From IMG/VR virus record IMGVR_UViG_3300010354_000277, positions 1-34,991 of that record: DNA of 34,991 nt, one strand, 5' to 3'. This document shows, piece by piece, positions 3,557 through 27,484 of the stretch. The first letter of the stretch is position 1. The number at the start of each line of letters is the position of its first letter. The position numbers and the translations under genes are program-made. The notes beneath the pieces were generated by a model. It did not search any database. It was given only the letters and a program-made list of their open reading frames with translations, and was not told where the DNA came from. The DNA is from a virus.

Positions 3557-6500
3557 ATGGCAGGAAGCACCTACTCCAGCAACCTCAAGATTGAGCTGAT
3601 GACCACGGGTGAGAACTCGGGCACTTGGGGCGACATCACAAACACGAACTTGGGCACAGCCCTTGAGCAGGCTATCGTCGGCTACGGCAATCCTGATTAC
3701 GTTTCTGATGCCAACCTGACCATTAGTATCACCAACAGCAACGCGGCTCAAGCAGCGCGCGCCCTGGTGCTGAATGTGACCTCGGTGTTTGGATCGCTGA
3801 CCGCGACTCGCGAGCTGGTGGTTCCCACAATCCAGAAGCAGTACATCGTCCAGAACAACACGACTGGTGGCCAAAGCATCACCGTGAAGACCTCTGCCGG
3901 TACTGGTATCACTGTTCCCAACGGTCGCAAGGCGCACCTGTATGTGGACGGCACGAACGTCATCCAGATGTTTGACTTCGTCGACATCAACGGCGGCACG
4001 ATCGACGGTACAGCCATTGGTGGCTCTTCTGCAGCGGCCGGTGCGTTCACCACGCTGGCAGCTTCTGGCGCGACCACGCTGAACGGTGCAGTGACCCTGG
4101 GCGACGCAGCTGGTGACAACATCACCTTCAACGGAACTGTCACCTCTCACCTGCTGTTCACCGACAACACCTACGACATTGGCGCGTCGGGTGCGACACG
4201 TCCTCGCAACCTGTTCCTGGCCGGCGCTGCCACCATTGGCGGCAACCTGTCTGTTGGCGGCACGTTGACCTTGACCGGTGGCGTGAACCTGAACGGCAAC
4301 GTGACCGTGGGCGACAGCGCTGCAGACACGCTGACCATCAACAGTACGATCACCAGCAACCTGCTGTTCACCGACAACACCTACGACATTGGCGCGTCGG
4401 GTGCGACACGTCCTCGCAACCTGTTCCTGGCCGGCAACATCACCGCTGGCGGCAATCAGACGCTGACCGGCACGCTGACCGTGGACAGCACGACTGACTC
4501 CAGCAGCACGACCACTGGCTCCATCCAGACGGACGGCGGCGTTGGCATCGCCAAGAAGTTGTTCGTCGGCCTGGACGCCAACATCTACGGACTCACCGTA
4601 GGCCGTGGCGCAGGTGCTGTGTCCACCAACACTGCGGTGGGCGCGAGTGCGTTGGCGGCTAATACGACAGGTGCGGCAAACACGGCGGTTGGCAACCAAG
4701 CGGGGTATACAAACACCACTGGAAACTACAACTCCTCGTTTGGTCATTTTGCAAATAAGCTCAACACAGGTTCTCTGAATTCTGCCTTTGGAGCGCTTGC
4801 GTTTGCATCCAGTGGAGCGGGCCAGTACAACTCTGCTTTTGGCTACACCGCGCTTAACGGAAATACAAGCGGTAATGCAAACACAGCTTTTGGTGGGGGT
4901 GACGGAGCAACATACAACGGCGCTCTTGGCGTAAACACGACTGGCTCAAACAACGTGGCTGTCGGTAACGGTGCACTCCAAGCCAACACCACCGCTTCTA
5001 ACAACACGGCAGTGGGTTATCAGGCTGGGTATAGCAACACAACCGGAACAAATAACACCGCTGTCGGTGCGGGCTCCCTGTACACAAACACCACCGCGAT
5101 CCATAACACGGCGCTTGGCTATTACACGCTCCGAAACACAACTGGTGCTGGTAACACGGCACTCGGAAGTCAAGCTGGCTTCAACAACACCACTGGTTAC
5201 GACAACGTGTTTGTTGGTGCGCAAGCCACCGGCTACGCCGCAGGCCTTGCAAACACAGCCGGTTACCAGAACGTGTTTATTGGATCGTATTCTGGTTATC
5301 AAAACACCACAGGGTATTCAAACGTGGCCGTTGGCTGGGGGTCTCTTGCAAGCAATGTGACTTCATACGGAAACATTGGAATTGGCCTTAATGCTGGGAG
5401 GTCTAACACCAACAGTGGTGGGGTCACTGCTGTCGGTTACCAGTCTGCATATTCAAACACCACAGGGTCTATTGATGCCTTTGGTTTCGAGGCTGGGTAC
5501 GCAAACACCACCGGCGGCAACAACGTGGCTATTGGCCTGTACTCGCTACGAGCCAACACCACTGGATCAAACCTGACTGCGATTGGCAACGGCGCTCTTT
5601 ACAGCAATACCACTGCATCGAGCAATGTGGCGGTTGGTTATCGTTCCGCGTACAGCACAACCACTGGCAACAACAACACTTCTGTTGGGCCATCTTCGTT
5701 GTACACAAACACCACTGGCTCGTACAACGTGGCCATGGGCAACTCGGCTTTGTTTTCGAACATTGATGGCGTGAACAACACCGCCATTGGTGGCGGCGGA
5801 GTCATGTACAGCAATACGTCTGGTTCTAGCAACTCGGCGTATGGTTTTGAGGCATTGTTTTACAACACCACAGGGGCAAGCAATACGGCGATTGGCACAC
5901 AGTCACTTCGCTCCAACACCACCGCATCTAACAACACTGCTGTTGGTTATCGGGCCGCATACAGCACAACCTCTGGGTATGGGCTTACCGCGATTGGTAA
6001 CACCGCACTTTACAACGTCACCACGGGCACTCGCCACACGGCTGTTGGCTTTGAAGCTGGATACAGCATTGCGGGAGGCGATCCAAGCAACGGTGCCTTG
6101 GTCGCTGTGGGCTATCAAGCCGCTCGCTCATACACCGCTACGGGTACTGGCTCAGAGTTTTATGGTTCTGTCCACGTTGGTAGCTATGCGGGGTATACAA
6201 ACACCTCTGGTCAGGGCAACGTAAGCGTCGGTGGCTTTGCATTCTTCTCTAACACCACCGGCAACTCAAACACTGCCGTTGGTAGTGGTTCGCTGTATAA
6301 CAACACCACTGGTGGAAACAATACCGCCCTTGGTTACCAAGCGTTGTCCAACAGCTCCACAGGAAGTCAAAACACGGCCATTGGTGTGGCCGCTTTGACA
6401 AGCAACACCACCGCCTCCTACAACACGGCTGTTGGATTCCAAGCGCTTCAAGCCAATACAACAGGTACAGAGAACACTGCTCTCGGACGAGTTGCAGGTT

Positions 6501-25023: not shown

Positions 25024-25800
25024 ATGGCTAAGAACGAAATCGCGGAACAGAAAGCCAGCACCGCACTGGCGATCATGAGCGACCTGGAACAGGACGCTGG
25101 AGCCGGCTTTGACGGCATGACGCAGGAAGACTATGCACTGCCTTTCCTGCGCTTGCTCACCAGCACCAGCCCTGAAGTTGGCGAAGTTGATGGTGCCCTC
25201 CCAGGCATGATCCTCAACTCCGTCACAGGTGAACTGTTTGACGGCAAGAAAGGCATCGCCGTTGTACCTTGCGCCTATGTGCGCCAGTACATCGAGTGGG
25301 CCCCACGCGGTCAAGGCAGTGGTGCACCTGTGCATATCTACCCTGCTACCAGCGACATCCTGTCACAGACCCACAAGGAACCTGGCGACAACAAGGACTA
25401 CCTGGACAACGGCAACTACATCGAGAACACCGCTAACTACTATGTGATGGTGGTGAGCGACACGGGCATCCCTGAGCCGGCCCTGATCACCATGAAGTCT
25501 ACGCAGCTCAAGAAGAGCCGCAAGTGGAACTCCATGATGCAGTCGGTCAAGATGACTGGCAAGAACGGCTTGTTCACGCCTCCGATGTACAGCCAGATGT
25601 ACAAACTCTCCACCGTTGCCGAGTCGAACGACAAGGGCAAATGGTTTGGCTGGGAAATCGAGCGTACCGGCCCTGTCGAGTCTGCCGATGTGTACAACGC
25701 TGCCAAGGCATTCGCACAGTCGGTCAGTGCGGGTGACGTGAAAGTTAAGCACGAAAGTGCGGAGGGCGCTGAGTCAAGCAACGGACCAGCTCCATTCTGA
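25024..25800 (+). CDS. Putative single-stranded DNA-binding protein
   Basis: The start at 25024 (MAKNEIAEQK) follows AGGAACACG; upstream in-frame ATGs lie in the preceding gene. The 258-residue protein has a beta-rich core from about residue 40 to 220. It contains YALPFLRLLTS, GIAVVPCAYVRQYIEWAPRG, NYYVMVVSDTG, STQLKKSRKWNSMM and KWFGWEIERTGPV, rich in aromatic and basic residues that could contact DNA. The tail (ESAEGAESSNGPAPF) is acidic and ends in Pro-Phe, as in many SSB tips. It lies directly before the primase gene. The SSB call comes from context and the tail; the core family itself I cannot name. Confidence 0.5.
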   Translation: MAKNEIAEQKASTALAIMSDLEQDAGAGFDGMTQEDYALPFLRLLTSTSPEVGEVDGALPGMILNSVTGELFDGKKGIAVVPCAYVRQYIEWAPRGQGSGAPVHIYPATSDILSQTHKEPGDNKDYLDNGNYIENTANYYVMVVSDTGIPEPALITMKSTQLKKSRKWNSMMQSVKMTGKNGLFTPPMYSQMYKLSTVAESNDKGKWFGWEIERTGPVESADVYNAAKAFAQSVSAGDVKVKHESAEGAESSNGPAPF

Positions 25801-25805
25801 GTTTT

Positions 25806-25935
25806 GGGGGACTCATGCGGCTCGTCGGACCACCCGGGTTTAGCATCGGTCTAACCTTGTCCAAAGCGGAAAGCCAGGGGATTTGCAATTACCCTGGTAG
25901 CAAGAGGATAGTAAACCGCATCGGGTCCCCCACCA
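25806..25935 (+). ncRNA. Candidate structured RNA before primase gene
   Basis: The 151-base gap at 25801-25951 folds into a closed multibranch structure. P1 is GGGGGAC (25806-25812) with GTCCCCC (25925-25931). Stacked on it, ATGCGG (25815-25820) pairs with CCGCAT (25916-25921). With the T-G and C-G pairs between them, this makes about 15 pairs with one bulged C. Inside are GGAC/GTCC (25827-25830 with 25859-25862), a bulged hairpin GGTTTAG/CTAACC (25837-25843 with 25851-25856), and a perfect hairpin CCAGGG/CCCTGG (25874-25879 with 25892-25897). The 3' strand is followed by ACCA, as in a tRNA acceptor, but there is no T-arm. It could be a cis-acting leader or a free RNA. I cannot match a known class. 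Confidence 0.55.
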
Positions 25936-25951
25936 TCACTAGAAAGAAGAA

Positions 25952-27484
25952 ATGACCGACATCACCAGGTTCAAAGCGATTTTTTCCGGCCTGGACATCG
26001 CCTATGGAACATACAAAATTGAATCATCCCGAGGAGACGGGAAACAGGCAGGCAAGGCCGTCGTGGTGCGCAAGCCACCGACTGACGACCTGTGGGTCAA
26101 ACACCTCGAGGGCGTTGAGCCGAGTTTGGGCATTATCCCAATCAGGGCGGATAACACCTGCGTGTGGGGCTGTATTGACATTGACCAGTATCCACTGGAC
26201 CACGTTGGCCTCATAAAGAAGGTCAGAAGCCTCGAGCTTCCAATGGTTGTGTGCCGCAGCAAGTCTGGCGGCGCGCACGTTTTCCTGTTCGTCCAAGAAC
26301 CCATCCCCGCTGCTGAGATGCAGCGGTTTCTCAAGGCCTGTGCTGCGCTCCTGGGCGAGGCGGGCCGTGAGATATTTCCCAAGCAAGCTGAAATCCTGGT
26401 TGACCGTGGCGACACAGGCAACTTCCTGAACCTGCCGTACTTCGGTGGGGACCAGACAATGCGCTACGCCATCAAGGACGATGGCACGGCAGCTACCCTG
26501 GAAGAGTTCTATGGCCTGTATGACCAATGGGTACAGCCCCCAGAGCTCAAATATCCAGAGGAGCCCAAAGAGCCGGATCACCCGATTAAAGACGGCCCTC
26601 CTTGCCTGCAAGCACTTTGTGCCCAGGGCGTGCCAGAAGGCACACGCAACAACGCACTCTTCAACATCGGCATCTACCTCAAGAAGGTCATCCCCATACA
26701 CTGGGACGACGCCCTGGTAGAGCACAACCTCAAGTACGTAGCGCCGCCGCTGCCCAACAACGAAGTCCAGATTCTGGTCAAGCAGCTGCACAAGAAAGAC
26801 TATCGCTACAAGTGCAAGGACGCACCGCTCAACAGCTTTTGCAACAGCGGCCTTTGCAGGACACGCAAACACGGGATCGGGGCCCACGGGCCTGACTCAC
26901 CACAGATGTCATCGCTGTCCAAGTACAACTCCGAGCCACCGCTGTGGTTCCTCGACATCAACGGCAAGCGCATCGAACTGGACACCGAGAGCCTGTTCGC
27001 ACAAGCCGCTTTCCAAAAGGCCTGCGTCGAAAAACTCAACCTCCTGCCGCCCACACTGCGCAAGCAAGACTGGGAACAGCTGCTCAATGCGCTGCTCAAG
27101 GAGATGGTTGAGACCGAACAGATCACAGAGGCCAGCGAAGACACCAGCATCACCGGCCGCTTCAACGACCTGCTCGAAGAGTTCTGCACACACTTGCAGC
27201 AGGCAATGGATCGCGACGAAATCCTCATGGGCCGCCCATGGACGGACGAAGACGAGGCCAAGACCTACTTCCGCATGAAGGACCTGGAAGCGCACCTGGT
27301 GCGCAACAACTTCAAGGGCATGACGCATCCGAAGATGGCGCAACGCATTCGCGATCTGGGTGGCGAGCCCATCAGTTTATTTCTCAAGAACCGCGCAGCA
27401 CGGTGCTGGCGCATCCCACGCTTCAACCGCCAGGACGCGCCGTTTGAAACACCCGAGCAACGCACACACAGGAGCCCGTTCTGA
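25952..27484 (+). CDS. Archaeo-eukaryotic-type primase (PrimPol / TOTE-like)
   Basis: This 510-residue protein has a ribosome site AGAAAGAAG just upstream. The primase core shows D76-x-D78 in WGCIDIDQYPLD (metal-binding acidic pair), S103-x-S105 through H109 in SKSGGAHVFLF (nucleotide-binding motif), and N160-L-P-Y-F. This order is the signature of archaeo-eukaryotic primases, close to those of TOTE-type systems. After about residue 215, RNNALFNIGIYLKK looks like a primase C-terminal helical domain. C288, C297 and C302 (with C218 and C223) could bind zinc. The C-terminal 180 residues are helical and basic. It should synthesise primers for the family A polymerase encoded three genes later. Confidence 0.8.
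   Translation: MTDITRFKAIFSGLDIAYGTYKIESSRGDGKQAGKAVVVRKPPTDDLWVKHLEGVEPSLGIIPIRADNTCVWGCIDIDQYPLDHVGLIKKVRSLELPMVVCRSKSGGAHVFLFVQEPIPAAEMQRFLKACAALLGEAGREIFPKQAEILVDRGDTGNFLNLPYFGGDQTMRYAIKDDGTAATLEEFYGLYDQWVQPPELKYPEEPKEPDHPIKDGPPCLQALCAQGVPEGTRNNALFNIGIYLKKVIPIHWDDALVEHNLKYVAPPLPNNEVQILVKQLHKKDYRYKCKDAPLNSFCNSGLCRTRKHGIGAHGPDSPQMSSLSKYNSEPPLWFLDINGKRIELDTESLFAQAAFQKACVEKLNLLPPTLRKQDWEQLLNALLKEMVETEQITEASEDTSITGRFNDLLEEFCTHLQQAMDRDEILMGRPWTDEDEAKTYFRMKDLEAHLVRNNFKGMTHPKMAQRIRDLGGEPISLFLKNRAARCWRIPRFNRQDAPFETPEQRTHRSPF

Follow-up and report, generated by a model that had tools for sequence, protein, structure and literature searches.

The window (the whole 34,991-base virus record that was analysed) contains a gap, 25801-25951, between a gp34-like gene (PF23977) and a primase gene, and the question that it raises is whether a functional RNA is encoded there and, if so, whether it serves the neighbouring primase or stands on its own. 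The original prediction proposed a closed multibranch RNA, whose sequence, coordinates and closing stem P1, with 15 pairs and one bulged C (25922), have been confirmed. The folding statistics of this one sequence are only modest evidence for an RNA (z -2.04, with 8 of 200 shuffles folding equally well). Examination of 80 primase loci, together with pattern scans, has provided seven further distinct sequences from the same gp34–primase gap, and these eight are each 126 nt long and align without gaps. L121, found by the P1 pattern, is coding-like and was set aside as a chance match. On the eight-sequence alignment the three-way junction has 94.4% of its cells paired, and the covariation that had been sought in homologous gaps is present, with eight pairs changed on both sides and a score of 0.269, against at most 0.095 in slid controls and a value that none of 500 shuffles reaches. 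RNAalifold returns P1, P3 and P4 identically on this alignment and extends P2. The closed multibranch RNA is therefore genuine. The inner hairpins of its minimum-energy fold are partly wrong, the comparative arms being P2, P3 and P4 (Table 1).

The paired columns hold 36 G-U cells versus 8 A-C cells, which means that the selected molecule is the + strand RNA. The same imbalance argues against a DNA-level hairpin, for instance a replication origin or a primase-loading site, that the position between the SSB-like and primase genes might suggest; copies of the element also exist far from this primase gene, and a role of this kind is very improbable. A small protein gene has to be weighed as well, since a 46-codon frame opens at ATG 25815, overlaps the primase start as ATGA and is open throughout the element in each of the eight homologues. 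Its variable columns are nevertheless spread as 17, 19 and 17 over the three codon positions, and its pN/pS is 0.79, compared with 0.085 in the primase; moreover, L012 stops early and the corresponding frame of L376 contains a stop. With no third-position bias and a pN/pS that is not low, the protein-coding reading is disfavoured and hardly credible. The comparison of homologues indicates instead that the gap holds a real folded + strand RNA, a three-way junction made of P1 and two arms, P2 and P3/P4.

Table 1. Positions of the RNA, its parts and the flanking genes in the window.
Feature	Position	Strand	Basis or remark
gp34-like gene, upstream	25024..25800	+	PF23977, Pfam 2.6e-67
Entire structured RNA, 126 nt in 8/8 gap homologues	25806..25931	+	gapless alignment A1, covariation, R3 match
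Closing stem P1, 5' strand	25806..25820	+	partner 25916-25931
Alternative helix, 5' strand	25810..25818	+	partner 25843-25851
GGCUCG junction strand	25819..25824	+	invariant in 15/15 sequences of alignment A5
Arm P2, 25824-25829/25850-25855	25824..25855	+	pair types CG, UA, UG / GC, GU, AU across homologues
Alternative helix, 3' strand, competitor of P1 and P2	25843..25851	+	pairing and folding predictions
Arm P3, 25857-25862/25906-25911	25857..25911	+	pair 25860-25908 seen as UA, GC, CG, UG
P3 internal loop, AAAGCGGAAA / UAGCAAGA	25863-25872 / 25898-25905	+	both strands kept in distant relatives
Arm P4, 25873-25879/25892-25898	25873..25898	+	pair 25877-25894 seen as AU, GC, UG, CG, UA
AGUAAAC junction strand	25910..25916	+	invariant in 15/15 sequences of A5
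P1, 3' strand of the closing stem, bulged C at 25922	25916..25931	+	covariation alignment
Presumed primase ribosome-binding region, AGAAAGAAG, outside the fold	25941..25949	+	sequence; kept in relatives
Archaeo-eukaryotic-type primase, downstream	25952..27484	+	PF22548 3.8e-14, phrog_21866 7.5e-98

The P2 loop holds a palindromic CCCGGG (25833-25838), which takes the forms UCCGGA and ACCGGU in homologues, and the 12-nt loop of P4 holds the palindrome UUGCAA (25883-25888), with UCUAGA or CCUAGG in this region of distant relatives. As for the gene upstream, the AlphaFold model of its product aligns 164 residues with the RB69/T4 gp32 core at Z 6.4-6.5, where a Z of 8 would be firm, and the gp34 homologues end in ...F, mostly PF. 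A ...PF tail is typical of bacterial SSB. The predicted fold and this tail make an SSB-like product likely, not proven, as the fold-comparison Z lies below the firm level.

The RNA has no counterpart in the known classes that were searched. Rfam 15 gives no match in the window at the gathering threshold, and none at E <= 10 in the gap or in the relative L376, which agrees with its description as unassigned. The 3' end had also been likened to a tRNA acceptor, but the comparison does not bear it out as a feature of tRNA: ACCA occurs in just two of the eight homologues (ACC being common), ARAGORN predicts no tRNA gene in the window and no Rfam tRNA model matches there. A CCA-type end on a 7-bp acceptor stem is likewise not what the family has, the length of P1 varying widely across it. 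No + strand terminator-like site is found at the element, whose tail is ACCAUCACUAG, without a U-run, and a promoter scan of the gap finds none on the + strand at the element.

Scanning for the 3' junction strand retrieved L370 and L371; L374/L377, L375, L376, L378 and L379 came from a further scan. These are seven distinct distant relatives (L374 and L377 counting as one); L372 and L373 look like chance matches. These relatives keep the core sequences GGCUCG, CCUUGYCCRAAGCGGAAA and GCAAGAGGRUAGUAAACC, and P1, P2 and P4 are mostly swapped for other complementary sequences, so that the junction strands are fixed across the family and the sequence of P1 is variable. The bulged C of P1 recurs in L370, L371 and L378, at the same or an adjacent position. 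In six distant relatives 12 pairs show double changes, with a covariation score of 0.474 versus at most 0.133 in slid controls. All stems covary, both in the gap homologues and in the distant relatives; support for P4 is weaker in A7, where 70.7% is paired, because the register of P4 differs between sequences. The covariance model R3, built from six distant relatives and from no gp34–primase gap sequence, gives the window a score of 64.5 bits (E 1.7e-14) and finds five further gp34–primase homologues at E < 1e-5, and this recovery is independent evidence for common descent, the window showing the three-way junction with the invariant GGCUCG, CCUUG and AGUAAAC strands. R3 misses L019 and finds L082 at just E 0.035, owing to a diverged inner loop of P3; both are found by model R1, which was trained with them, and the matches of R1 and R2 to their own training sequences are not independent evidence. 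There is one copy per record in the records searched. A blastn search of the family core against phage and plasmid records gives zero matches even at E 10, which places the family outside the searched sequenced phage records at that sensitivity. Taken together, these comparisons indicate that the RNA belongs to a previously uncatalogued RNA family, which occurs in the genomes of uncultivated phages.

The contexts of the relatives bear directly on the role that had been proposed at the primase. L370 and L375 lie behind other replication genes; in each case the gene before the RNA is of the MSN(x)TLF type, which in other phages precedes the shell RNA described below. L374 is located upstream of a polymerase gene, and L379 at the start of the region before genes that look like terminase genes, as judged from their sequence. 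In L376 the RNA precedes two tRNA genes by about 250 bases, and the next ~600 bases hold no + strand ORF of at least 45 codons. L378 is found a few bases behind a promoter-like TAGACA-17-AATAAT, alternatively read as an extended -10, TGTTATAAT; one such match beside a single copy is weak evidence. Of the distinct distant relatives, L370, L371, L374 and L375 (four of seven) sit among replication genes, and three of these (L370, L371 and L375) closely follow a stop codon. The relatives have no downstream gene in common, which counts against a riboswitch. Because the distant relatives, whose covariance model recovers the window, are spread over unrelated gene contexts, a primase-specific switch is unlikely to be the job of the family, and the same spread favours a free phage RNA: the element probably functions as an RNA in its own right and not merely as a switch of the neighbouring primase gene, with a primase regulator as the weaker rival. 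The original prediction is thus partly supported: its structure and its alternative pairing hold, whereas its focus on the primase was too narrow.

That alternative pairing had been proposed from the sequence GCATCGG, which is indeed present twice, and it is real and longer than first thought, joining 25810-25818 with 25843-25851. In the eight gap sequences 98.6% of its cells are paired, and it reaches 9 bp in relatives; the copy in the window carries one C-C mismatch, which weakens the helix. Partition-function folding of growing transcripts gives it a mean pair probability of 0.84-1.0 up to nucleotide 118 in all eight sequences; it is still probable in most of them at nucleotide 122, and P1 wins at full length only, so that a kinetic strand exchange is predicted for all eight. 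It has been considered on this basis that the alternative helix and P1/P2 could form a strand-exchange switch, set by ribosomes terminating on gp34 or by a protein such as gp34 itself, that tunes primase translation. The conservation of the 9-bp helix in eight homologues would fit such a switch, as would the predicted preference of incomplete transcripts for the alternative helix and of the full-length RNA for P1, and the joint change, in the window only, of positions 25813, 25848 and 25924, which would join both pairings; T4 gp32 offers a precedent for SSB control via a structured mRNA site (PMC535899). However, the helix is absent from the distant relatives and confined to the gp34–primase lineage, of which it is therefore a specific addition, it is mismatched in the window, and its covariation is reached by 70 of 500 shuffles and is not significant. 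As the ribosome-binding site of the primase is, in addition, exposed in both states and no terminator U-run is present, a switch of this type is unlikely.

The slot behind gp34 is seldom without a stem. One is found close behind the gp34 stop in 55 of 64 distinct gaps, versus 17.7 expected from shuffles, and it starts ~4-8 nt after the stop codon in most relatives. Its occupants are unrelated: the window RNA, a 95-nt RNA, a loop-E hairpin family and plain GC hairpins, which also fill the slot in the isolates DSL-LC04 and 023Pt_psg01. Since a stem is nearly always present and the occupants are unrelated, the role here may in part be a generic one, that of providing the gp34 message with a 3' hairpin. 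The 95-nt RNA (L002 3887-3981, with 20 more distinct sequences, from the gp34–primase gap of other relatives) combines a GAAA/GAGTA loop with a palindrome at its centre, GGGTACCC, changed to GGGCGCCC in L004. In L071 the gap at ~3874-4000 (127 nt) holds another closed multibranch candidate, GGGGGAGAGGGC...CCTCTCCTCC, unrelated in sequence. Directly behind the primase, L021 and L071 carry an int-alpA RNA (RF02996; 5544-5609 in both, 52.9 and 47.1 bits), where the window has no gap.

The loop-E hairpins form a second uncatalogued RNA family, in which a shell, GGCCGAAAGCGGATGCTG ... CAGACGCAGCGAGTAGGCC, with a loop-E-like GAAA/GAGTA encloses hypervariable cores. Copies are many among L122-L361 (e.g., L304, L128 and L275), and one lies in the phage record MW202879 (L369 1501-1577); two scans gave at least 120 stretches each, some chance matches included. 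Among the matches listed, the shell RNA is mostly located 5-10 nt after stop codons, and the upstream genes are often of the ssDNA-binding or annealing type (SSB, Enc34 ssDNA-binding, RecT, DUF669, gp34). Its inner stem covaries and its cores fall into at least 99 clusters; among the matches listed, the same core turns up after genes that are unrelated, and a single gene family can be followed by many different cores, a pattern that suggests exchange of cores. In L127 (1100-1172) and L175 (625-697) the core is tRNA-Thr-like, with anticodon TGT according to ARAGORN, and its acceptor stem is fused with the shell stem, L127 matching the Rfam tRNA model at 30.0 bits. The exact scanned pattern is found in one contig only among 84,980 species genomes, a Verrucomicrobiota MAG (L362 2936-3017). 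The shell RNA shares with the window RNA its site behind ssDNA-binding genes, and its arm CC-GAAA-GC-GGA.. / ..GC-GAGUA-GG resembles the CC-RAA-GC-GGAAA / UA-GC-AAGA-GG of the window family. It is, in contrast, a single hairpin with an exchangeable core, and its model R2 has no match in the window genome (G000), so that this is a resemblance only. Record G042 carries both the shell and a class-A RNA, which are thus not mutually exclusive.

It could be argued from this slot that the element is purely a cis intercistronic structure, i.e., a gp34 3' UTR that blocks exonucleases or partially uncouples the operon and thereby sets the gp34:primase ratio, its arms merely giving a compact, resistant fold. 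The short distance between stop codon and stem in most relatives is consistent with this proposal, as are the plain GC hairpins that fill the slot in other phages, and the unrelated shell family likewise hugs the stop codons of ssDNA-binding and annealing genes. On the other hand, the ~40 conserved core nucleotides would be unneeded for a barrier, and in L376, L378 and L379 the RNA does not directly follow the stop of a recognisable gene. A purely cis element is a possible explanation, less likely than the one preferred below.

Among described RNAs, STAXI (RF01728) is a structured motif that often neighbours genes of ssDNA-binding proteins and of other proteins that handle DNA (PMC2864571), and it is the nearest precedent for the neighbourhood of the window RNA; it consists, however, of tandem pseudoknots of Enterobacteriales, whereas the window element has no Rfam match. 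The L17 downstream element (RF01708) is a structured 3' UTR RNA whose direction was argued from G-U pairs (PMC2864571); it also lies 3' of a gene, but has other hosts, another gene and no covariance match. For a cis role involving an SSB the closest parallel is T4 gp32, which controls its own message (PMC535899). The T4/RB69 gene 32 translational operator is a structured RNA tied to the SSB gene in the replication module; it comprises an upstream pseudoknot and a less structured UUAAA leader, while the window RNA is a three-way junction downstream of an SSB-like gene.

Palindromic loops raise the further prospect of an oligomer-forming scaffold, in which the apical loops of P2 and P4 would make kissing contacts from one copy to another, like those of phi29 pRNA or the GOLLD/ROOL RNAs. 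The phi29 pRNA is a phage-encoded three-way junction that is closed by its paired ends, oligomerises through loop-loop contacts and binds the motor. The window RNA has the three-way junction in common with it, together with palindromic loops that could make such contacts, and has neither an Rfam match nor a gene-context link in the window. The 6-nt palindrome of P4 occurs in three forms (UUGCAA, UCUAGA and CCUAGG), the P2 loop is CCCGGG, UCCGGA or ACCGGU in the gp34–primase lineage and UGUACA in L378, and L379 adjoins the terminase-looking genes. The palindromes were, however, spotted post hoc, with a rough hand-estimated chance of ~1 in 1000 for the three P4 loops, the P2 loop is merely ACGU in most distant relatives, and the window has no packaging link, so that a scaffold is improbable. 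A broader and speculative proposal, which is also rather unlikely, is a new class of trans-acting RNA of ~100-130 nt, present once per genome and mobile between sites, with the 3' UTR of ssDNA-binding genes as its favoured landing place, that would form dimers or complexes through palindromic loops and manipulate a host or phage protein.

The fold, the + strand, the family and its presence in unrelated gene contexts are established by comparison. The explanation that is preferred, tentatively and at somewhat short of an even chance, is that this member of an undescribed phage RNA family is an autonomous domain that folds co-transcriptionally and binds a partner through its core, and that acts in addition as a local 3' hairpin. 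The function that we infer for it would proceed as follows. Transcribed as part of the gp34–primase operon, the RNA would first form the 25810-25818/25843-25851 hairpin and then, once the 3' strand has been made, exchange strands into P1. The compact closed RNA, protected by P1, would persist, whether processing sets it free or it stays on the gp34 message as a protected 3' end, and its invariant unpaired core would then bind a protein or another RNA; the RNA is probably stable and protein-binding. A second, generic role is likely, which unrelated hairpins fill in other phages: a stable hairpin directly behind the gp34 stop would allow the SSB-like product and the primase to be made at different levels. 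What counts against the preferred explanation is that four of the seven distant relatives sit among replication genes and three lie close behind a stop codon, which makes a cis role possible, and that the distant relatives lack the alternative helix.

The fold and the invariant core reach the customary comparative standard for a functional RNA, without a match to any Rfam family. That the same gene slot harbours several unrelated structured RNAs makes the region behind phage ssDNA-binding genes worth searching. As the core is short, direct testing by deletion, probing and pull-down would be possible. An RNA that occurs once per genome in varied neighbourhoods, both within operons and in apparently separate units, points to a task in infection that these phages share.
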